Shown here one piece after another: positions 18,167-64,000 of a stretch of 64,000 nucleotides of DNA. Location: the IMG/VR virus record IMGVR_UViG_3300025010_000028, positions 1 through 64,000 of that record. One strand, written 5' to 3'. A program made the translations under genes and the position numbers. The first letter of the stretch is position 1. Every line of letters begins with the position of its first letter. The DNA comes from a virus. A model generated the notes under the pieces. That model was not told the DNA's origin. It did not search any database and saw nothing but the letters and a program-made list of their open reading frames with translations.

Positions 18167-19894
18167 TTAAGAAGTGTATTTAGTAATACCAAAGTCATTA
18201 TTTTTCAAAGTCAATCCACCTTGAACTGGTAAAACTTCAGTGGTTAAATATCTGGATGTTCCCATAATGTTGGGGATTAAAGGAGTATTTGGATTTCTGT
18301 AAACGTTTTCAATGTTCAAACTGTATTTGTAATGTTTGAATGTAATAGTTTCTTGAGTCAAAGGATAAGCAACAATACGTAAACCTTTTTCTCTAGGAAC
18401 TTTCAATGAACTTACAACATGGACTCTACTCTTATTTCCAGTAAGTACACCAAACTTATACTCCAATTGAATACCACCAATTTTCGTATCTTCATCAATA
18501 ACCCATTTAACCTCATCCTGGATTAAAGTGATATTACTTGGATTACCATAAATAACAAACATCATATCGGTAATTTTTAATTTTGTTTTTAGTTCGTCAA
18601 TAAGACGAGTTATATAGAACTTTAATTCACTGTTAATCCATTGTGAAATTGGAATATGAACACTGGAAGTGGGAAGACAATTAAAGCTAGAAGTTTCAAC
18701 AAAACCGCCAGTATAACCAAAAGGCAGGTCCTTTTTATCTTTCCATGTGGTGAAACTTGTATCCAGGAATTGCAAAATACCACTATCTTCAAAATGGGTT
18801 AATACTGTGCTCATGTCGGTAATGATATCAGCTGTAATGTTTGTATTAAATAAAGCCCTGTTATCTTTAATTTTTTCAATTGTTAATCCAGTGTTGATTC
18901 TTTTCCCATCAGGAATTTTCCACTCTTTGGTGACTCTTTCTTTATCCAGTTCGACAGTTTCAGTGTTGTTTTCATTACTTAAATGTCCACCGAATCTAAC
19001 CTTTGTAATTTTACCACTAGTACAAGCAACAGATACCGTACCATAATACGGATCAACTTGACCTGTAATAATATCTTCTACTGCTGTACCGGCGGCATTT
19101 TCAGTTTTAATACGATATGAAAAAGTATTATTGGACCCAAAATCCGCTTGAATATTCAAACCTGAAATAATTTTATCCGCACCATCGACTGTCATTTTGA
19201 CCGCCTCAATGCAAAAATCATATGCTAAACTATCTCTTGTTTCCATGGTACCACCAGATAAACGCATAATAGGTAGATCTTGGAAAGGTAAAACTACCCC
19301 TTCATCTGCTGGAAACCAAGTATTAACAATAGGCAGACCTTGTGTTTTTGCCTCTACAGCTGCATATGAACCATCATAAAAAATTTCTGGAATATAGTAT
19401 TTAGTACCAGCTTTATCTTTTAAAAATTTTCTTTCAAAAGCAATTTTGATAATTGGTTTTGTCGGAATTTCTGTCATAACAATATCTTTAGAATGACACT
19501 CCAAATAATTCTTTTTAAGAACCGGTAATGAAATACCAACAATCGGAGACAGGCTTCCGATATCCATAGATTCCTTGATGAGTTCTAAGGAGGAGTTTTC
19601 AAACAATTGACTTAACTTTTGAGGATGCGTTGAATAATACGGATCATCAATGTGCCCCATATCAACATCACCAAGCAGCTGTTCTTTATAATCTTCTCTT
19701 AAGGTATCCACTTTTAGAATTTGTAATAAATTATCAACTGGGTCAATGTTATAATGGCCTTTAAAATTTTCTACAAGAGATTTAAAACTCTCTTTGAAAT
19801 CACTATTTCTATCGACAGTAAACGAGCCAATTACCCTCGTCGGGTTTTGATTTTCATCTAAGTAATCATACATGTCTTTGGCACTTCCTCTCAT
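18167..19894 (-). CDS. Major capsid protein
   Basis: Up to 575 aa. The ATG at 19894 overlaps the upstream stop (ATGA). The ATG at 19873, eight bases after GAGGAAGTG, is an alternative. Segments such as SLSPIVGISLPVLKKNYLEC, KDIVMTEIPTKPIIKIAFE and the C-terminal YKFGVLTGNKSRVHVVSS resemble capsid proteins of large myoviruses. Length, strong codon conservation and position next to the acidic and membrane-type proteins and the prohead protease all fit. The N terminus (about 100 residues) may be removed by the protease at 22314-23144; that is inference. Confidence 0.75.
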   Translation of the reverse strand: MRGSAKDMYDYLDENQNPTRVIGSFTVDRNSDFKESFKSLVENFKGHYNIDPVDNLLQILKVDTLREDYKEQLLGDVDMGHIDDPYYSTHPQKLSQLFENSSLELIKESMDIGSLSPIVGISLPVLKKNYLECHSKDIVMTEIPTKPIIKIAFERKFLKDKAGTKYYIPEIFYDGSYAAVEAKTQGLPIVNTWFPADEGVVLPFQDLPIMRLSGGTMETRDSLAYDFCIEAVKMTVDGADKIISGLNIQADFGSNNTFSYRIKTENAAGTAVEDIITGQVDPYYGTVSVACTSGKITKVRFGGHLSNENNTETVELDKERVTKEWKIPDGKRINTGLTIEKIKDNRALFNTNITADIITDMSTVLTHFEDSGILQFLDTSFTTWKDKKDLPFGYTGGFVETSSFNCLPTSSVHIPISQWINSELKFYITRLIDELKTKLKITDMMFVIYGNPSNITLIQDEVKWVIDEDTKIGGIQLEYKFGVLTGNKSRVHVVSSLKVPREKGLRIVAYPLTQETITFKHYKYSLNIENVYRNPNTPLIPNIMGTSRYLTTEVLPVQGGLTLKNNDFGITKYTS

Positions 19895-22313: not shown

Positions 22314-23144
22314 ATGCAAAAACAAGAAGTTGTTGCTTATCTCATAAGAGAGTGTGTTTCGGACCCAAGTAAGCCAACTAATATTCAAAGAATTAATAGA
22401 GATAATTTATTTTATTTACAATTTGATACAATATTACAAGAATTTAATATAAGAAATAGAAATGGTAGAACATATATTGATAAACCAATGATGGAATCAT
22501 TAGGTGCACCTCATATAAATGAATTAAGATTAAAAAATTCTTGGTGTGGAGAAGCTGGACATCCAACATCAGATGATCCTAAACGTATATTAGTCATTGA
22601 TCCTAAATTAATATCCCATAAAATATTAACATATAATTTAACTGGTAATTTATTAAGAGGGACTATTCAAACATTAGATAATGATCATTTTGGTAAAGAT
22701 ATGACTAAATCTATATTACAAGGAATGGAACCTGCTTTTAGTTTAAGAGCATTAGCTAAAGTTGTTAAAACTGCTACCGGTGGTTTAATCAATAGTAGAG
22801 GGCATGTTGTTACATATGATTGGGTTATTTTACCCAGTCATGATAAAGCATATAGGGATGATTCCATACCAATTAAAAAGATTAATAGAAATATTGAACT
22901 TAGTGGAAACAGTCTTCAAGAAAATGTATTAACAGTAGTTCAAGAATCTCAAATTGCTGATTTTATTAAAACTGAATCGAAGAATATTAAATTAGTTTCT
23001 AATATCTATGAAATTGTAACTGAAAGTATGGAAGTTACATCTGATTTTAAAAATGCTATTTTAAAAGAAAATGGTTCAACTTTTATTGTTAGAATTGAGG
23101 ATAAAATAAAAAGAGATATTACCCATTATATGTCAAGGATATAA
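22314..23144 (+). CDS. Prohead maturation protease
   Basis: 276 aa with ATG after AGAAGGAGTTGATATAAAAA, divergent from the capsid block. RNGRTYIDKPMMESLG and WCGEAGHPTSDDPKRIL near residues 70-100 supply the catalytic His in GHP. MEPAFSLRALAKV near 145 supplies the Ser, as in the T4 gp21 / herpes assemblin-type fold. The C-terminal 80 residues are helical and could be the scaffold-anchoring part. It is expected to cleave scaffold and capsid N termini during maturation. Confidence 0.8.
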   Translation: MQKQEVVAYLIRECVSDPSKPTNIQRINRDNLFYLQFDTILQEFNIRNRNGRTYIDKPMMESLGAPHINELRLKNSWCGEAGHPTSDDPKRILVIDPKLISHKILTYNLTGNLLRGTIQTLDNDHFGKDMTKSILQGMEPAFSLRALAKVVKTATGGLINSRGHVVTYDWVILPSHDKAYRDDSIPIKKINRNIELSGNSLQENVLTVVQESQIADFIKTESKNIKLVSNIYEIVTESMEVTSDFKNAILKENGSTFIVRIEDKIKRDITHYMSRI

Positions 23145-54928: not shown

Positions 54929-56043
54929 CATGATAATCCATATTTTCATATGGCACGGATCATCTCTTCATCCTTTATAAAGAATAAGAAATATAAAGGA
55001 GTTCTGCGCTTCCCAACCAGCCCTCAAACTGGCTAGTACTTCTACTATTTTAATATTTAATATAAATATTAAAATTTCGAATGATCTCTACATTCCTATG
55101 AATTAAATCTTTCCCCAATTCAATGTATTTAACTTTTTCTTTTAAAATCTTTTTTCTATTATATAAATTTCTTTCAATTTCAGTAATAGTGTTGTAACAG
55201 AGATCTTTCTCATAATAAAAAATAAGATACTTTTTAACTTTAATTCCTTTTTTATTGCTCTTGTTATATGTGTTCTGTCAACTCCTATAATTGAAGCAAA
55301 GAGTTTAGAACCCTCATAATATTTAAATTGCCCATCTTCATATACAACTATTGGTATTGATTTTTTTAATCTTTCTTCCCATGTTAATTTAATCCCTCTT
55401 TTATTTTCATACGCTTCTCCACCAATACCCATATTATATCCTTTTTCTACATTTTTTGAGTCAAGTTTTTCTATCCATTTAATCTCTTTCATATTTAAAT
55501 CAACCAATGAATTACATTTCTCCAATATAACACATTCAAAATTCTTTTCTCCTTTTTCATAAAGAGCAATACCAATATCCCTATTAATATTACGTTTAGT
55601 TAATTTTTTACTTTCATATCTATATTGGCGTAGACGGTTTAAAATGTCTCTTGTTTGTCCAACATATATTTTATTATTTGTTTTATCAATAATCATATAA
55701 ATAACACCAAAATATTTCTTACATTCTTTAGATTCCTCTTCTGAAATTTTAAACAAATTACTCACCTCATTGAATTGTTGAGCATTTAATACTTTTTTAT
55801 TTTTTGGGAAAAGTTAATTCATAAAAACACGGTATTACCAAGCTAACCATATTTCAGGTCCTTAGGTTCTCTTACGAAGCATATTCGTCGGCTGTCAAAT
55901 ACCACTTATTTCCGCTTCTACCGTTAGCATAGGTTATCTTTCCAACTTTATTCTTAATAACCCACACACCGCTCGTTAAGCGTTCACAGAATGCTATCAG
56001 CAATATTACTACTGCTGAGCGACCAAAGTTCTTCGAACGTAAA
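54929..56043 (-). ncRNA. Group I intron of a second lineage inside the beta-prime DxDGD motif
   Basis: 1115 nt between GGDYDGD and QVSLKV. The 5' exon end GCGAU pairs with a downstream guide GUCGC (5 bp, U.G at the splice); the last intron base is G. It lacks the AATTGTCGGGG, GTTCAACGACTATC and GATATAGTCT elements of the other eight. A GC-richer segment at 55860-56040 is probably part of its folded core. It carries a GIY-YIG gene. Group I is supported by the U...G boundaries and P1; a full core fold was not built. Confidence 0.75.
55142..55756 (-). CDS. GIY-YIG homing endonuclease
   Basis: About 204 aa; TTG 55756 after GAGGTGAGTAA or GTG 55765. GVIYMIIDKTNNKIYVGQTR is the GIY-YIG pair (GVIYM ... 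YVGQT), with catalytic Arg in RLRQYRYESKKL and the Glu in FECVILEKCNS (E in ...IKWIEKL). The C-terminal part resembles NUMOD-type DNA-binding repeats (GVDRTHITRAIKKELK). Expected to promote homing of the host intron. Confidence 0.85.
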   Translation of the reverse strand: MFKISEEESKECKKYFGVIYMIIDKTNNKIYVGQTRDILNRLRQYRYESKKLTKRNINRDIGIALYEKGEKNFECVILEKCNSLVDLNMKEIKWIEKLDSKNVEKGYNMGIGGEAYENKRGIKLTWEERLKKSIPIVVYEDGQFKYYEGSKLFASIIGVDRTHITRAIKKELKLKSILFFIMRKISVTTLLLKLKEIYIIEKRF

Positions 56044-56740
56044 ATCGCCGTCGTAATCCCCACCGAGACCTGTTAAATACAGGTTTGACATTGTTACTGT
56101 ATCAGCAAAGGCAACAGAAACTTTATCTTTAGGCATTTTAATATCTATTTTAGGGTAGTGCTCATATACCCTAAAACCAACAAACATTGGAATAGTTTCA
56201 TGTGTTGATAACACATGAATTTTATTAGGAAAAGTACCAAAATAATCTAAAACAGGATACCGTGTTACATATACATGTTTGTCAGAGGTAATTTCAACTG
56301 CTGCTTGATATAAAATATCACACCATGTAGCAGGCCTTTGTATTAAGGGTGATTCTGTTTCTGGAACTCCTTTAATATATTCTCTGCCGATGAAACTTAA
56401 ATAAATATTTTTATCATATTTTGGATCATCTACAGGTAATTTAATTTTTTCAAATCTATCACCATAACTAGAAATAAATTTATTAATTTGCTTTTCAATA
56501 TATTCATCATTAAAATATAATTCCGGAGATTTTAATTTAACATAAATAATTTCTTCTGTTTTTAATCTAACTGGATATTTATTATATAATCTTTCTAATT
56601 CTCTTTGAAAAAATCTTTTTACCCATGTTATCATAAACGGTGTACATAATGAACAGCATTGTGACAATGGAATACCACAATTATAAAAGTCAACCTTCAT
56701 TTCTTCTGGTCTATTTGCTTTAAATACAGGTGCAGAAATT
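56044..56740 (-). CDS. RNA polymerase beta-prime, N-terminal half, exon 2 (active-site aspartates)
   Basis: Begins ISAPVFKANRPEEMKVDFYN and CGIPLSQCCSLCTPFM, then continues to LYLTGLGGDYDGD, the counterpart of NADFDGD whose three aspartates hold the catalytic magnesium. It includes IQRPATWCDILYQAAV (compare RQPTLHRLGIQAFEP region) and YPVLDYFGTFPNKIHVLS. One split GTA codon with exon 1; ends in phase 0 at GAT. Confidence 0.9.
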
Positions 56741-57964
56741 CGTTGTATTCACATAGTTCGTCAGACTATGCAGTTCTCTAATGAACGTCCCTAGTTTTCA
56801 CTAGGATACTAGACTATATCTTCATCTTTTTGATGGTTTCCCATTTCAACCCACCATTAATTGACTTGTGAGTTTACCTACTTACCCTATGTTTACCAAT
56901 TTTTATATTAATGATAAACATATTGTTTTCGATAGTCGTTGAACTTTTCTCTTTATTTGTTGTTGTATTATGTCTATATTTTTTAAAATTATCCACGTTA
57001 TATTGAGATGATATTTGTTTCCAAGTATTATTGTATAAAATATGTTTTATTATATATTTAGAAATATTTAATTTTTTAGATATTTCCTTAATTGATAATT
57101 TTCCTTCTTCTAATAATTTACAAACTGAATGTATCATCTCTTCATTACAAGATGCATGATAGTGTTCTTGTCCTTTTGAATATGGAGTTTTACTTTTTTT
57201 AGGATCTATATTATATAATGATGATATATATGTCCAACTTCTTCCTAATACAATTCTTTGTATTAAATCTTTTGGTACTTCTAATTTTTTAGATATTTTT
57301 GAACGATTATATCCATTTTCTAATAATTCACATATATTATGAATTATTTTTTCTGAATATTTACACATGGAATTTTTTTCACCTTTTCCACCTTCAACTA
57401 AACCTAATTCAAATGCATGAACCATTTGTTCAGAATAAGTAGCCCATTCTAAATTATAAACATAATTATTAGATTTAACACCATCTTTATGATTAACTGT
57501 AGGTTTATTTTCAGGATTAGGTATAAAAGCTATTCCCACTAATCTATGCATTTTCCTAATATACCGCTTTGAATTAAGATATAGTGAAACTATCAAATAC
57601 CCATCTGAATCCTTAGCAGGATGTAATATATAATTAGTTTCTTCATTTTTAATATTACCATATGAACTAATACTATATTTTGTTATTTTATTTTTAATAT
57701 AAATTTTTTTCCATTGTTCCTTTTCTGTTATTATATTTATAAAAAACAATCTTATCACCTCCTTTAATAAAAAGTTTATTTATTATTAAAAACTTATTTT
57801 AACACAACAAATAAAGAGACTTAGCTGCGGATTACCTAATTTCTTACCTTGTTACCATACCTAAGGCATTACCCTTCGCCACTATATTATTACTAATATA
57901 GTTTGGTAGTAAGATATTTAAAAGGCTTCCCCGACAATTAAAGAATCACGTGCATTGTAAATTT
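56741..57964 (-). ncRNA. Group I intron in beta-prime (RSV|IS), with HNH ORF
   Basis: 1224 nt. Exon end GUGU pairs with guide GCAC; 3' end is CTATGTGAATACAACG. Core elements on the minus strand: AATTGTCGGGGAAGCC near 57940-57925, AATCCGCAGCTAAG near 57830, GTTCAACGACTATC near 56943 and AAGATATAGTCT near 56824. Joining gives GVRSVISAPVF, matching SGRSVITVGP of bacterial beta-prime. Confidence 0.9.
56874..57746 (-). CDS. HNH homing endonuclease (NUMOD4-HNH-helix repeats)
   Basis: About 290 aa; TTG 57746 lies eight bases after AAAGGAGG (GTG 57758 overlaps that site). KYSISSYGNIKNEETNYILH (NUMOD4), VGIAFIPNPENKPTVNHKDG / NYVYNLEWATYSEQMVHAF (HNH, His and Asn intact), two helical repeats (SEKIIHNICELLENG, NEEMIHSVCKLLEEG). 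The C terminus SSTTIENNMFIINIKIG is encoded by the intron core. Clear sibling of the gene at 36377-37204. Confidence 0.85.
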   Translation of the reverse strand, partial: FFINIITEKEQWKKIYIKNKITKYSISSYGNIKNEETNYILHPAKDSDGYLIVSLYLNSKRYIRKMHRLVGIAFIPNPENKPTVNHKDGVKSNNYVYNLEWATYSEQMVHAFELGLVEGGKGEKNSMCKYSEKIIHNICELLENGYNRSKISKKLEVPKDLIQRIVLGRSWTYISSLYNIDPKKSKTPYSKGQEHYHASCNEEMIHSVCKLLEEGKLSIKEISKKLNISKYIIKHILYNNTWKQISSQYNVDNFKKYRHNTTTNKEKSSTTIENNMFIINIKIGKHRVSR

Positions 57965-58680
57965 ACACTCCTAACGCCAAAATCAATAGATTTACCTAAT
58001 AGAGACTTACGGATCAGCCCTTGTTTTTTCTCTATTTTACCTTTAAGTAAATCATATATTTCAACAAGCATTTCTTGAATTTTTGCTTTAGTTGTATTTA
58101 AAACAAAGTCAAAATTATTATTATTAATTATAGAAGCGAACCTAATTAATTTAGAATATTTATCATTGATCTCATGATGTGACACTCTTCCTTCAGCTGC
58201 AAATTGTAAATTTACATCTCTAAAGAAAGCTGGCATAACAATCCAATATTTAGTAAATAGAACATCTTTTTTATATGATTCTAAAACAGAAATTCTTTCA
58301 TTTCTCATCATACTATTATTTCTTTTAAAATCAAATTTCTCCCAGTTTTTATATAAAAATTCTATCCCACTTTCTCCATTTTCATCTTCAATTAATTCAC
58401 CATCTTTAATTATAAAATTTACATTACCATATATAGCAGATTCAAATTTCTTATTCATTCGTTTTAATGTTTTAAATATAAATGGGTGTAAGAAATGCCC
58501 GTGTAAATCGATATAAGCATATGTTTCTTTTCTTTCTCTAGCCGAAACTCCAAAAATATCTGTTGATAATAAACCATCAACAGTTGGAATATTCCCTTTC
58601 TCAAATAAAATTAAGTTTGTTATTTCTCTTAAATTATTAACCTCAATAAATTTCTTAGTGTCATATAATTCTATTTGCAT
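57965..58680 (-). CDS. RNA polymerase beta-prime, N-terminal half, exon 1
   Basis: ATG 58680 after GGAAGAGGTGATTTATGG. Residues near 15-45 match the beta-prime N terminus; KQGLIRKSLLGKSIDFGVRS near 225 is the [20 protein letters not shown] motif at the active-centre cleft. The start overlaps the upstream gene end (58671-59051). No zinc-binding N-terminal cysteines are seen, as expected for reduced phage subunits. Confidence 0.85.
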
Positions 58681-59318: not shown

Positions 59319-60818
59319 CTATTCGATTTTGGTAGTCATTGCCTGCTGATACTTGAGAAAAAGGATTTCCTCCAATTCCATATTAACTGTATTGTTATGA
59401 TGTTTACAATTTGGACAAGTAATATTCATTAAACCGAATTCAAATCCATCCATAAGTATATCGGCTTGTTTACTTAATATTAAAATATCTGTATCACTTA
59501 AAGAATAAATTATTTTAGTTATATCCGTAACAGAATCGAATTCAAAGTATTCATCTAGTTCTTTTTCATCAGGAATATAAACTTTATTAACAACTGATGA
59601 TAATACAGATGCTTGATTGTACTTGCTATCTTTATTATCAGATAATTCTTTAATAGATTTATTAATATAATCGTATACTGATTGAATATACATTTCAACA
59701 ATAAATCCACTATCCGGTAATCTAATAGCTTTGACTTGAGAAAAAGAACTATTTTTATGCTTAAATTTAGCTGTTTCTAAACTAACCGAAGCATCTATAA
59801 TAGAACCAACTTCTTGCTTAAGTTTATCACTCATCTTTTCAGCTCTAATTAGAGATTTAATTGAATATTTATGTTCAAAATCTTTACCACATTTTTCACA
59901 TTTTAATGGAATTGTATCATCATTAGGATATGTTGCACAAAGAATACCATAAATATACATATTGTAATCTAGTGCAGCTGATTTAATTAGAAAATCCTCA
60001 TATGTTAATATACCAATACTGGTTGACTCAATTTTACTATGAATTAATGACCATTTTGTTTGGGCATCTATAAGTGGATTCTTAGTATCTGCCATTATAG
60101 ACATTAATTCATATGCAGAACACCCTTTCATCATAGCAGTATAACCAGAATTTACTGCAACAATAGGTGTCGTATGAATATTAACAAACTTTTTAAGAAT
60201 AGTGTCAACTTTACCTTTTTTCTTTTTAGTTTTAAGGACTTGCAGATTGATAGTTTCTACTTCCTCTAATTTAATTTTTTTCACTTTTTCTAATTTTTCT
60301 CTTTCTTCATTGGTAAAATTAATAATAGTACCCATACCAGTTTTATCAATAACAACAACAGCTTCAGAATAAACTCTATCAAATTCATCTTTAGTCATTT
60401 TTTCATCAGCTGCATCTTTTTCATCATCATCATCATCTTGTTTAGATTTAATTTCTTCAACTTTTTCTTTAACAACACTAATAGTTTCATCAAAATCTTT
60501 CATATATTCATCTAAACTATTCATAGTTTCTTTTGATAAACCAGGTTGTTCTCTCATTGTGGTTGGTTTCTCTTGTTCTGATTTTTCTATTATAATACCT
60601 AAACCCTCATATTTACTTTCTGTTTGAACATCAGATAAATTAATAGAATCTTTGGGTAAAGTAGGTCCCAATTCTTCAGAGCATATCTTATTCATCCAAT
60701 TGTTTCCAATAACTGGAGTTAATTCATTATCATTAATTTCTTCTTTTAAAGTATTTAACTCACTTTCTTTAATAATTGCCTGTAAATCAATGCCTTGATC
60801 AAATTTAATATCACTCAT
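59319..60818 (-). CDS. Baseplate hub / tail assembly protein with two CxxC pairs
   Basis: 499 aa, ATG 60818 after AAGGATGGTGTTCTAGTA. The first 140 residues are acidic and probably disordered (EEIKSKQDDDDDEKDAADEK). The C-terminal half carries CEKCGKDFEHKY and CPNCKHHNNTV, two zinc-ribbon CxxC pairs about 160 residues apart, typical of T4 gp26-like baseplate hub assembly proteins in large myoviruses. Neighbour of the gp25-like gene supports this. Confidence 0.6.
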   Translation of the reverse strand: MSDIKFDQGIDLQAIIKESELNTLKEEINDNELTPVIGNNWMNKICSEELGPTLPKDSINLSDVQTESKYEGLGIIIEKSEQEKPTTMREQPGLSKETMNSLDEYMKDFDETISVVKEKVEEIKSKQDDDDDEKDAADEKMTKDEFDRVYSEAVVVIDKTGMGTIINFTNEEREKLEKVKKIKLEEVETINLQVLKTKKKKGKVDTILKKFVNIHTTPIVAVNSGYTAMMKGCSAYELMSIMADTKNPLIDAQTKWSLIHSKIESTSIGILTYEDFLIKSAALDYNMYIYGILCATYPNDDTIPLKCEKCGKDFEHKYSIKSLIRAEKMSDKLKQEVGSIIDASVSLETAKFKHKNSSFSQVKAIRLPDSGFIVEMYIQSVYDYINKSIKELSDNKDSKYNQASVLSSVVNKVYIPDEKELDEYFEFDSVTDITKIIYSLSDTDILILSKQADILMDGFEFGLMNITCPNCKHHNNTVNMELEEILFLKYQQAMTTKIE

Positions 60819-60836
60819 TACTAGAACACCATCCTT

Positions 60837-61256
60837 TTAAATATTAGTTATACTTTCTTCAATAGAATAATTGAAGAGTATATCCCCAGAATTGTTTTTA
60901 GTAAAACCAAGTAAAATTGTAGTGTTATCTGTTAATACTGGGATAGCAACCATTAAAATTCCTTGTCCTTTATATTCAGCGACAAATACTTTTACTTCAC
61001 CCATATTCAGATATGGTATTAAAGCTGGGCATTGTCTATATATATTTTCTTTAAGACCATCAATATTAACTTGATCATCAATACTATATAAATATTGGTG
61101 TATATTGATTCCTATATGTGGTAAACTAGGTATATTACCAGGTCTCATAAAAAATAAATTAACTATAATTTGAGCAATAGATTGATTACTATTAAGAACT
61201 TTTTGTTTTTGAAAATTATCAACTCCAAAATCGATTTCTTTTTTAAAGTTTTCCAT
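60837..61256 (-). CDS. Baseplate wedge protein, gp25/W-like
   Basis: 139 aa, ATG 61256 after GGTGGTGTTGTATAATATATT. NLFFMRPGNIPSLPHIGINI and HQYLY near residues 30-57 match the gp25-type signature (T-x-R-G-x-x-P-x-x-P-x-x-G-x-x-x-x-x-L). The C-terminal part is a beta domain with ILMVAIPVL. gp25 family proteins form the baseplate inner wedge and nucleate the sheath. Confidence 0.75.
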   Translation of the reverse strand: MENFKKEIDFGVDNFQKQKVLNSNQSIAQIIVNLFFMRPGNIPSLPHIGINIHQYLYSIDDQVNIDGLKENIYRQCPALIPYLNMGEVKVFVAEYKGQGILMVAIPVLTDNTTILLGFTKNNSGDILFNYSIEESITNI

Positions 61257-61804: not shown

Positions 61805-61876
61805 TTTTATTTATTTATATTTTGCACATATAAAAAACATTTACATAATAGCTTAAAAGAAAGGATGTGTTTTAAT

Positions 61877-64000
61877 TTGATTAAGTGTAATATATGTGAA
61901 GATAAATTTAATCATATTGAAGATTTATACGAACACCTTGAACAAGAACATGAGGGTATGATTCCTAAAACTTTTACTCCAGCACAATATTTTTATTTTG
62001 TAAAAACGGGTAAAGATAAAGGAAGATGTATTATATGTAAAAGACCCACTAAATGGAATGAAACTACTAATAAATATTTAAGATTTTGTGAAAGACCTGA
62101 ATGTAAAGATAGATATAGAGAAATATTTAAACAAAGGATGATTGGTAAATATGGTAAGATACATTTATTAAGTAGTCCTGAACAACAAAAGAAAATGTTA
62201 GCTAATAGAAAAATATCAGGTGAGTATGAATGGTCTGATGGTAATAAAAAAACATATACTGGTTCATATGAATTAGATTTATTAAAATTTTTAGATATAT
62301 TTTTACAATTTGATTCAGATGATGTAATGACACCATCACCTCATGTTTATTATTATGTATATGAAGGTGAAGAAAAGTTTTATATTCCTGATGTATTTAT
62401 AGTTTCTTTAGCATTAGAGATAGAAGTCAAACAAGGTGGGGAAAATCCTAATAACCATCATAAAATCATAGCAGTTGATAAAGTAAAAGAAAAATTAAAA
62501 GACAGAGTATTAATGAGTCAAACAACTTTTAGTTATATCAAAGTTATTGATAAAAAATATGATTCTATATTTGAATTTTTAAAACAAGCTAAAGATAGAT
62601 ATATTGAATCTAATGGTGAAGATAACAGACCTATATTTGTTTTAATGGAATCTTATAATGAAATTATTAATACTGATATTATAATGGAAGCTGAATATCA
62701 ACGTGCATTAAGAATATTAGGAGATAATAAAGATAAAGAAAAATTAGGACCAAGGGAGTTTTATAATAAAGTATCTTTTAGATACATTTATAAAGTTGGT
62801 AATAGAAATGCTGGATTTATTGAAGTAAAGGTTAAAAGAGAATATGCTTTCTTTAATATATTTATTAAAGAAGAGTTTCGTGGAAAAGGTATTTCTCATG
62901 TTTTAATGAATGAGGGTATTCAATTCTGTCATCGTTCTAAAAGAGATATAACATCAATTGTTTTAAATATAAAAAAAACTAATAATATATCTATCAAATT
63001 AGCTAAAAAATATGGGTTTAAAGAACAAAAAAGCGACATGGTTAATAAAACACATATAAGGTTTATTAGATCTCTTGATGAATTTATTAAAGAATCTTTT
63101 ATAGAAGAGAATAAAGATGAAAAAGCTATTGACCTTAGTTATGATATACGACCAGATTCTAATTATGATTCTGAACAATTAAAAATAGGGATAAAAATTG
63201 AACAGGAACACACTAAAAATTTAGATAAAGCTAGAATGATAGCTAAAGATCATTTAGATGAAATACCCGATTATTATACTAGATTAGTTAAAATGGAGGA
63301 AGAAGCTAAAAAGAAATGGGATATACCTTGTAACGAAGGTTTTTTTAATGCCAATGAATTAAAAAATACTAAAATTAAAATACCAGTTATAACTTTTCCA
63401 AAGAACGAATGGGTTAGTATAAAAAAAAGACTTAATTCTGGTAAAATTGTTTATACTATACGTGTATATGCCGAAAGACATAAATATTTAGAGAATAATA
63501 TTTATCAAACTGAATGGGGGGCTCCTGTACAAATTATCAGTGTTATTGAAATAAAGAGTATTAATGATTATCAATTTAAAGAATATTTAAATGATAAAAT
63601 GAAAAATGATATTGGTGGTGCTAGAAAATTAGAAGTTATAACTTTAAAGAAGATAGATGATTCATATATTTCTGAAACATACTATAATGTTAAGGATTCA
63701 AAAATATCTGGTAAAGGTATATTTGCAAATAAAGGTATTGATTATAATACTAAATTATTAGCTATAAAGAAAGTTAATGAAACTGGTAATCCAGATAAAG
63801 ATTATGAACGAACTAAAGCTGGTCAATTTGTTAATCATTCAAATAATCCTAATTTAGTATTAGTTCAAGCTAATAGAAATGGGAAAAAAGTTTACTTTTA
63901 TAAATCTAAAAATAAAATTAAAAAAGGTGAGGAATTAACTATAGATTATAGGCAATTTGATTTTGAGGGTGAAAGAGATTTTGTTAAAGAATCTTATAAA
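61877..64000 (+). CDS. Multidomain polyvalent-type protein (zinc finger, PD-(D/E)XK-like, GNAT, ASCH-like, SET-like), runs off window
   Basis: Open from TTG 61877 (after AAAGGATGTGTTTTAAT) to the window end, at least 708 codons. C4/C7/H20/H25 form a C2H2-like finger. C51/C54 with C71/C76 look like a second zinc site. Residues 127-186: E132, D172 and E183-V-K185 fit a PD-(D/E)XK nuclease. About 300-375: GNAT fold, FFNIFIKEEFRGKGISHVLM then KKYGFKEQ. About 440-480: helical DUF5661-like DKARMIAKDHLDEIPDYYTR. About 500-570: ASCH-like VITFPKNEWVSIKKRL. From about 604: SET-like, SKISGKGIFANKGI, NHSNNPN (653) and KKGEELTIDYR. Order is typical of delivered polyvalent proteins; function is inference. 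Confidence 0.7.
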   Translation, partial: MIKCNICEDKFNHIEDLYEHLEQEHEGMIPKTFTPAQYFYFVKTGKDKGRCIICKRPTKWNETTNKYLRFCERPECKDRYREIFKQRMIGKYGKIHLLSSPEQQKKMLANRKISGEYEWSDGNKKTYTGSYELDLLKFLDIFLQFDSDDVMTPSPHVYYYVYEGEEKFYIPDVFIVSLALEIEVKQGGENPNNHHKIIAVDKVKEKLKDRVLMSQTTFSYIKVIDKKYDSIFEFLKQAKDRYIESNGEDNRPIFVLMESYNEIINTDIIMEAEYQRALRILGDNKDKEKLGPREFYNKVSFRYIYKVGNRNAGFIEVKVKREYAFFNIFIKEEFRGKGISHVLMNEGIQFCHRSKRDITSIVLNIKKTNNISIKLAKKYGFKEQKSDMVNKTHIRFIRSLDEFIKESFIEENKDEKAIDLSYDIRPDSNYDSEQLKIGIKIEQEHTKNLDKARMIAKDHLDEIPDYYTRLVKMEEEAKKKWDIPCNEGFFNANELKNTKIKIPVITFPKNEWVSIKKRLNSGKIVYTIRVYAERHKYLENNIYQTEWGAPVQIISVIEIKSINDYQFKEYLNDKMKNDIGGARKLEVITLKKIDDSYISETYYNVKDSKISGKGIFANKGIDYNTKLLAIKKVNETGNPDKDYERTKAGQFVNHSNNPNLVLVQANRNGKKVYFYKSKNKIKKGEELTIDYRQFDFEGERDFVKESYK

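Follow-up and report, generated by a model that had tools for sequence, protein, structure and literature searches.

Polyvalent proteins, which are encoded by phages and conjugative elements, join anywhere from two to 15 domains of unrelated biochemistry into a single chain, and the authors who defined them liken them to the polyproteins of RNA viruses and propose release of the domains by embedded peptidases (PMC5512222). The substrates of the prohead proteases of SPN3US, phiKZ, 201phi2-1, and T4 are packaged in the phage head and partly ejected; the proteases of these four phages cleave after glutamate, with serine favored at P1' in SPN3US (PMC10052503, PMC5694885), and SPN3US gp245 removes its own 64-residue C-terminal propeptide (PMC10052503). 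Here we describe P0001, a 1075-residue protein whose frame runs past the end of a 64,000-nucleotide stretch of viral DNA (hereafter the window), which comprises bases 1-64000 of the 187,268-base IMG/VR record IMGVR_UViG_3300025010_000028. By computation we establish its domain content, predict the folds of its SET and C92 modules, and show that it is under purifying selection, lies in a conserved gene order, exchanges modules between phages, and is specifically enriched, with its relatives, in a protease-type motif. From these results we regard P0001 as probably an effector polyprotein packaged in the head, which the prohead protease would divide into individual enzymes ahead of injection.

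A motif at the module boundaries of P0001

The original prediction, made from the window alone, described a large protein fusing zinc fingers with nuclease-, GNAT-, ASCH-, and SET-like domains from position 61877 to the window end without a stop. This frame is confirmed and has no stop before that end, but its first ATG lies 12 bases upstream, at 61865; extending the sequence beyond 64000, as had been suggested, completes the frame at record base 65092 (1075 codons) and adds two further domains. The features of the chain are listed below, with a vertical bar marking each proposed cut.

61865..64000, + strand: portion of the polyprotein frame inside the window, residues 1-712 (full length 1075, ending at record base 65092)
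61877..62590, + strand: zinc-finger and PD-(D/E)XK endonuclease, residues 5-242 (PHROG 15137, E 3e-65)
62642..62653, + strand: candidate site 1 for the prohead protease, between nuclease and GNAT (L-M-E|S after E262; VLME|SY)
62768..63067, + strand: GNAT acetyltransferase domain, residues 302-401 (Pfam PF13673/PF00583 above cut-off, E 7e-9)
63086..63097, + strand: candidate site 2 for the prohead protease, between GNAT and DUF5661 (I-K-E|S after E410; FIKE|SF)
63167..63304, + strand: DUF5661 domain, residues 435-480 (Pfam PF18905 above cut-off, E 2e-13)
63425..63601, + strand: weak ASCH-like stretch, residues 521-579 (Pfam PF04266 below cut-off)
63668..63679, + strand: candidate site 3 for the prohead protease, between the ASCH-like stretch and SET (I-S-E|T after E604; YISE|TY)
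63677..63991, + strand: predicted SET methyltransferase module, residues 605-709 (Pfam PF00856 above cut-off; AlphaFold; Foldseek)
63983..63994, + strand: candidate site 4 for the prohead protease, between SET and C92 (V-K-E|S after E709; FVKE|SY)
63992..64000, + strand: start of the predicted permuted papain-like (C92) module, residues ~710-905, mostly beyond the window
Past position 64000 and up to record base 65092, + strand: transglutaminase-like module, residues ~920-1075, by motif only

An independent contig (L009) is completely identical to P0001 over 953 amino acids, and the diverged relatives L025 (1515 amino acids) and L026 (1473 amino acids) have frames without interruption. Pairwise ratios of nonsynonymous to synonymous substitution rates (dN/dS) between P0001 and these relatives are 0.15-0.26 in each module compared, SET included, so every compared module is kept by purifying selection. 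Together, the identical contig, the intact relatives, and these ratios lead us to reject an assembly chimera.

All four P0001 matches to [ILVFM]xE[ST][YF] (E262, E410, E604, and E709) fall between domain envelopes and none inside one; with envelopes covering ~73% of residues 243-876, a hand calculation puts the chance of four out of four sites outside at ~0.006. Relatives carry at their boundaries LISE|SY, VLKE|SY, IIKE|SY, NLTE|SY, NILE|SA, ALKE|SY, KLNE|SY, SIEE|SF, YLTE|ST, AVSE|AK, and others. In L025 and L026, [ILV]-x-E-S/T sites bound the inserted or replaced modules on both sides: the position of site 1 is an insertion boundary in L025, and that of site 4 accommodates an extra module in L026 and a second SET domain in L025.

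Enrichment was assessed in ten distinct polyproteins, past residue 240, against the other proteins of the P0001 genome, with P values serving as guides. The motif [ILV].ES occurs 29 times versus 8.2 expected (3.5-fold, P 1.4e-8), a count reached in 0 of 2000 shuffles, and when the trio in which the motif was noticed is left out it occurs 21 times versus 6.5 expected (P 5e-6). Altered control motifs (SE.[ILV], [ILV].SE,.DS,.KS,.QS,.NS,.ET,.EN,.EK, and polar P3) stand at 0.40-0.87 of background, and [ILV].EG and.EA at 1.55 and 1.14, in line with the P1' residues tolerated by the major capsid protein (MCP). Of 87 homology breakpoints, 33 lie <=20 amino acids from a site, with 18.5 expected (P 2e-4; for <=12 amino acids, P 0.012), and the extended motif is found 0 times in the 8,551 amino acids of stand-alone nuclease orthologs.

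The boundary motif matches sites in two head proteins of the same clade, both encoded in the window.

18167..19894, - strand: MCP, AR9 g117 ortholog (blastp E 6e-46)
19568..19579, - strand: inferred MCP maturation site, I-K-E|S (E108), from alignment
22314..23144, + strand: prohead protease, AR9 g114 ortholog (blastp E 2e-25), the proposed processing enzyme
22938..22949, + strand: conserved V-Q-E|S (E211), ~65 residues from the C-terminus of the prohead protease, from alignment

The glutamate at MCP position 108 does not vary among the relatives whose sequence reaches it, AR9 included; its context is [ILVMA]xE|[SAG], directly before the conserved mature region. In nearly all orthologs of the prohead protease, VxE|[SA] occupies the expected autocleavage point, corresponding to the place where SPN3US gp245 sheds its C-terminal propeptide. 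These two independent sites likely define the specificity of the prohead protease of this clade.

Enzyme modules, their exchange, and the gene neighborhood

The zinc fingers and nuclease-like part that had been predicted are borne out by the PHROG 15137 match. A tblastn search with the P0001 nuclease found matches in AR9, PBS1, Staphylococcus, Listeria, Yersinia, and Fusobacterium jumbo phages, and PD176 and K189 are invariant in the nuclease alignment (A1). The P0001 nuclease is an ortholog of AR9 g233 (46% identity, 238 amino acids) and phiR1-37 g237 (38% identity, 236 amino acids), both of which consist of the nuclease alone. An ortholog in a Fusobacterium phage (L018:3956-5128) carries the misleading annotation 'DNA gyrase subunit A'. 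A scan with the nuclease alignment yielded 52 loci, most of them stand-alone proteins of 236-276 amino acids; about ten lineages carry swappable enzyme modules, as follows.

L050: GNAT behind the nuclease
L029, L049, L200, L204: C92 behind the nuclease
L037: HAD phosphatase and a transglutaminase-like end
L051: metallophosphoesterase
L026: M23 peptidase
L025: tandem SET and a HEVAH peptidase-like insert
L206: GNAT, P-loop, and C92 with ART-like stretches

The ART-like assignments are based on short motifs (LYHG, LFHASP) and one sub-threshold Pfam match, and the HEVAH-type insert is confined to L025. In a stand-alone C92 gene (L203), a short leader ends in xE|S directly before the domain, and Fusobacterium JDFnp1_82 is similar.

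The GNAT part of the prediction is supported by Pfam matches above cut-off; the domain contains the acetyl-CoA motif RGKG (R-x-x-G-x-G), and its closest NCBIfam profile is RimI-like. For the ASCH-like part a corresponding stretch was found, but the match is weak (16.0 bits versus a cut-off of 21.2; E 0.07 for the whole protein and 0.02 for the segment alone), and in L025 a transglutaminase-like module stands in its place. The ArdC-N, polyvalent zincin, and MuF hub domains have no Pfam match in P0001.

All the quoted SET hallmarks (GKGIFANKGI, NHSNNPN, and GEELTIDYR) are present, and the domain includes the motifs GxG, NHxxxPN, and ELTxDY; the Pfam match covers residues 638-695 (E 1.5e-7, above cut-off). 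Across 50 phage SET sequences the core positions (GxG, NH, and the final Tyr) are conserved, and an AlphaFold model of residues 605-709 built on an alignment of these sequences has a mean predicted local distance difference test (pLDDT) score of 84. SET methyltransferases are among the top 50 Foldseek matches listed for this model, with MLL1 first (E 9e-6) and vSET of PBCV-1 (3kma) at E 6e-5 and a TM score of 0.56; in a sequence search of the PDB, human KMT2D and KMT2C are closest. By model and motif the module has a SET fold, and it is a predicted lysine methyltransferase; a chance motif is rejected on the Pfam, AlphaFold, and Foldseek results. Absence of the fold, or loss of the NHS and ELTIDY signatures in relatives, had been named as grounds for rejection; the fold is predicted and close relatives retain both signatures. 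Phage SET domains are already known and, as had been claimed, uncommon, but they are not unique to this protein: relatives are encoded by 10 of 50,697 phage records and by 100 IMG/VR contigs. Given that most of these are small stand-alone proteins, the chromatin link of the family, to which the original prediction pointed, is not needed, and we found no reason for a chromatin-directed reading. In the tandem SET pair of L025 (L025:9869-10450), the second copy lacks a clear GxG and keeps NHS and ELTINY, with FVKE|SF between the copies. In a further set of viral contigs (L122, L123, L125, L127, and L134), SET follows a DHH-phosphoesterase-like region in a protein of 650-720 amino acids; [IV]xE|S directly precedes SET and the protein opens with M..IKE|SG or a close variant, a hint that other, unrelated phages may also package SET in their heads.

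SET had been taken for the C-terminal segment, but C92 papain-like and transglutaminase-like domains follow it beyond the window. Residues ~710-905 are predicted to adopt a permuted papain-like fold (Peptidase C92, YaeF/YiiX): an AlphaFold model of the L025 copy has a pLDDT of about 80-93 over most of residues 10-190, its sole strong Foldseek match in the PDB is the Bacillus cereus cysteine peptidase 3kw0 (prob 1.00), and His35 and Cys133 are invariant in the C92 alignment (A5). The name 'enoyl-CoA hydratase' of PHROG 1128, which covers this region, is ruled out by the permuted papain fold, and 'enoyl-CoA hydratase-like' is a misleading label for the C92 domain family. The last ~155 residues are transglutaminase-like by motif and degenerate, with serine at the expected catalytic cysteine (NGSSHEQA in P0001, residues 950-962). 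This replacement is common to P0001, L025, and L026, and an internal L025 copy keeps VGVCWDY. AlphaFold, with few relatives, gave the terminal domain a pLDDT <50 and no fold support; the one weak Pfam match, DUF553, belongs to the related module of L025, which has no match in the phage collection.

Orthologs of the AR9 MCP, prohead protease, portal, sheath, virion RNA polymerase (RNAP) subunits, GroEL, and other proteins were found in the record by blastp, and on this gene content the source virus is an AR9/PBS1-like jumbo phage. Two neighbors precede the polyprotein gene.

59319-60818, - strand: gene matching AR9 g231 (blastp/gene order)
60837-61256, - strand: gene in the slot of the baseplate-wedge gene g232 (by position)

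The order g231/g232/nuclease is as in AR9, BpSp, and Staphylococcus Madawaska and is less complete in Fusobacterium JD-Fnp1. AR9 g233 is annotated as 'endonuclease fused to N-terminal Zn finger domain' and phiR1-37 g237 as 'phage structural protein'; AR9 g078 is annotated as proteolysed, with the RNAP domain alone in virions. Elsewhere in the window, the gene for the N-terminal part of the virion RNAP beta' subunit (55984-58680, - strand) is split by an HNH homing-endonuclease frame (56874-57758), which looks like a mobile intron or insertion; in the relative L011 the corresponding gap is only ~375 bases, with no listed HNH frame. Beyond the window, record bases 69675-71594 (L002:14676-16595) encode a 639-residue protein. 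Its C-terminal ~130 amino acids are also present at the C-termini of the L051 polyprotein, of L208/L209, and of similar 640-residue proteins in other phages, possibly as a head-targeting domain.

Proposed processing and packaging, and competing explanations

We infer the timing, cleavage, packaging, and injection of P0001, and the targets of all its enzymes, as follows. The chain would be made late in infection and would enter the prohead, perhaps via its N-terminal nuclease domain. During maturation the prohead protease would cut after the glutamate of [ILV]-x-E|S/T between modules, giving the nuclease, GNAT, DUF5661/ASCH-like, SET, C92 papain-like, and transglutaminase-like products as separate enzymes. 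These would stay in the head with the DNA and be ejected together at the start of infection, whereupon the nuclease may act on host DNA, the GNAT may acetylate a host protein, the SET domain may methylate lysines of host proteins, and the C92 and transglutaminase-like modules may cleave or modify proteins. The earlier idea of an injected or early effector that modifies the host remains the best reading, but we propose separate enzymes; a single working chain is probably not what the phage uses, as the [ILV]xE|S sites between modules suggest cutting by the head protease.

Several observations support this processing scheme. The MCP and the protease carry a like motif and related proteases cut after glutamate; the four P0001 sites all avoid the domain envelopes, [ILV].ES is specifically enriched, breakpoints and insertions coincide with sites, and stand-alone orthologs lack the motif; AR9 g078 is annotated as proteolysed, and the leader of the L203 C92 gene ends in xE|S. 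An association with the head or virion is suggested by the position of the gene beside baseplate genes, as in AR9, and by the structural annotation of phiR1-37 g237.

Other observations weigh against it. The annotation of AR9 g233 reads endonuclease, not virion protein, and the paper on the BpSp virion proteome makes no mention of BpSp gp288. In P0001 alone [ILV].ES is not enriched (3 versus 1.1 expected, P 0.10), and only the extended motif is (P 2.5e-4), a motif derived in part from P0001 itself. Because.ET as such is not enriched, site 3 (ISE|T) carries the greatest uncertainty among the four. Sites are scarce or absent at the module boundaries of L049, L050, and L200, and P0001 has no site ahead of its N-terminal nuclease and so no T4-like leader. 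Moreover, the sequences in the enrichment and junction tests are related and the background includes other head proteins, hence our use of the P values as guides.

The annotation of AR9 g233, together with the clear recombination of modules, would fit a conventional intracellular fusion enzyme, unpackaged, with domains acting in cis and ES linkers that are flexible spacers spread by recombination. We consider this unlikely because enrichment is restricted to E-S with an aliphatic P3 and does not extend to equally flexible altered motifs, because one spreading linker would explain neither the match to the MCP site nor the variety of site sequences, and because phiR1-37 g237 is annotated as structural.

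The peptidase-like modules raise another explanation, a classical polyvalent protein delivered whole, any processing, before or after injection, being the work of peptidase domains within the chain (C92, transglutaminase-like, zincin, or M23). Embedded peptidases were proposed for such proteins by Iyer et al. 2017 (PMC5512222), the P0001 C92 domain has its conserved His and Cys, and L025 has the HEVAH insert. This, too, seems improbable to us: L038 has [ILV]xES sites without a recognized peptidase module, the motif resembles the MCP and prohead-protease sites and not a feature linked to C92, and the P0001 transglutaminase-like domain seems to be without its cysteine. A further view, in which the nuclease serves as a carrier, mobile or associated with the head, and the modules behind it are either short-lived passengers without function or an assembly chimera, would suit the highly variable module content and the many orthologs without modules, but is very improbable in view of the dN/dS values, the identical independent contig, the long intact frames in several lineages, and the retained catalytic residues.

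Cleavage of P0001 by the prohead protease remains the explanation we favor, and we lean, less firmly, toward a general form of it in which AR9-group jumbo phages would use their capsid-maturation protease as a polyprotein processor, one gene carrying exchangeable effector cassettes with protease sites at their borders, and any enzyme placed between two sites, even a SET methyltransferase, being automatically packaged, set free within the head, and injected. If true, injected phage effectors could be recognized by a simple rule, as [ILV]xE|S-bounded modules behind an AR9-type nuclease; one gene would deliver many unrelated enzymes, with the head protease performing polyprotein processing in a manner that recalls RNA viruses; and the SET, GNAT, ART-like, and cysteine-peptidase enzymes would be candidate host-takeover factors of the first minutes, each a separate small protein.

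Comparison with known systems

In the open-access full-text literature, to which our search was confined, we met no description of effector modules set apart by sites for the prohead protease, and processing in trans by the prohead protease at each module boundary appears to be undescribed so far. A 2021 survey of jumbo phages discusses GNATs and polyvalent proteins, and the term 'SET domain' is absent from it.

P0001 and its relatives resemble the polyvalent proteins in the many unrelated domains (GNAT, peptidase, ART-like) per phage chain, the mosaic organization, and the predicted delivery with DNA. P0001 differs in that release there is attributed to embedded peptidases, whereas here the motif of a separate prohead protease stands at module boundaries; in that its carrier is an AR9-type nuclease, with no ArdC-N or typical zincin hub found; and in its SET domain, which is not met among the domains described in the passages of that account considered here (PMC5512222). 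AR9 g233 and phiR1-37 g237 share the orthologous nuclease and the same neighborhood with P0001 but have no C-terminal modules. The vSET protein of PBCV-1 and the phage SET proteins of PHROG 28741 are alike in their small SET fold and catalytic motifs, but vSET and most phage SETs are small stand-alone proteins, whereas the P0001 SET is a polyprotein module, doubled in L025. AR9 g078, a virion RNAP subunit with an extra domain, parallels our proposal in being annotated as proteolysed with one domain kept in virions; unlike P0001, it is an RNAP subunit and no effector chain. As a proposed head-packaged effector, P0001 can be compared with the internal head proteins of T4. The substrates of the prohead proteases (SPN3US gp53/gp54 and those of phiKZ, 201phi2-1, and T4) share the hydrophobic/small-x-E|S cut context (PMC10052503, PMC5694885), but known substrates mostly lose an N-terminal propeptide, whereas the P0001 sites would part several enzymes from one another.
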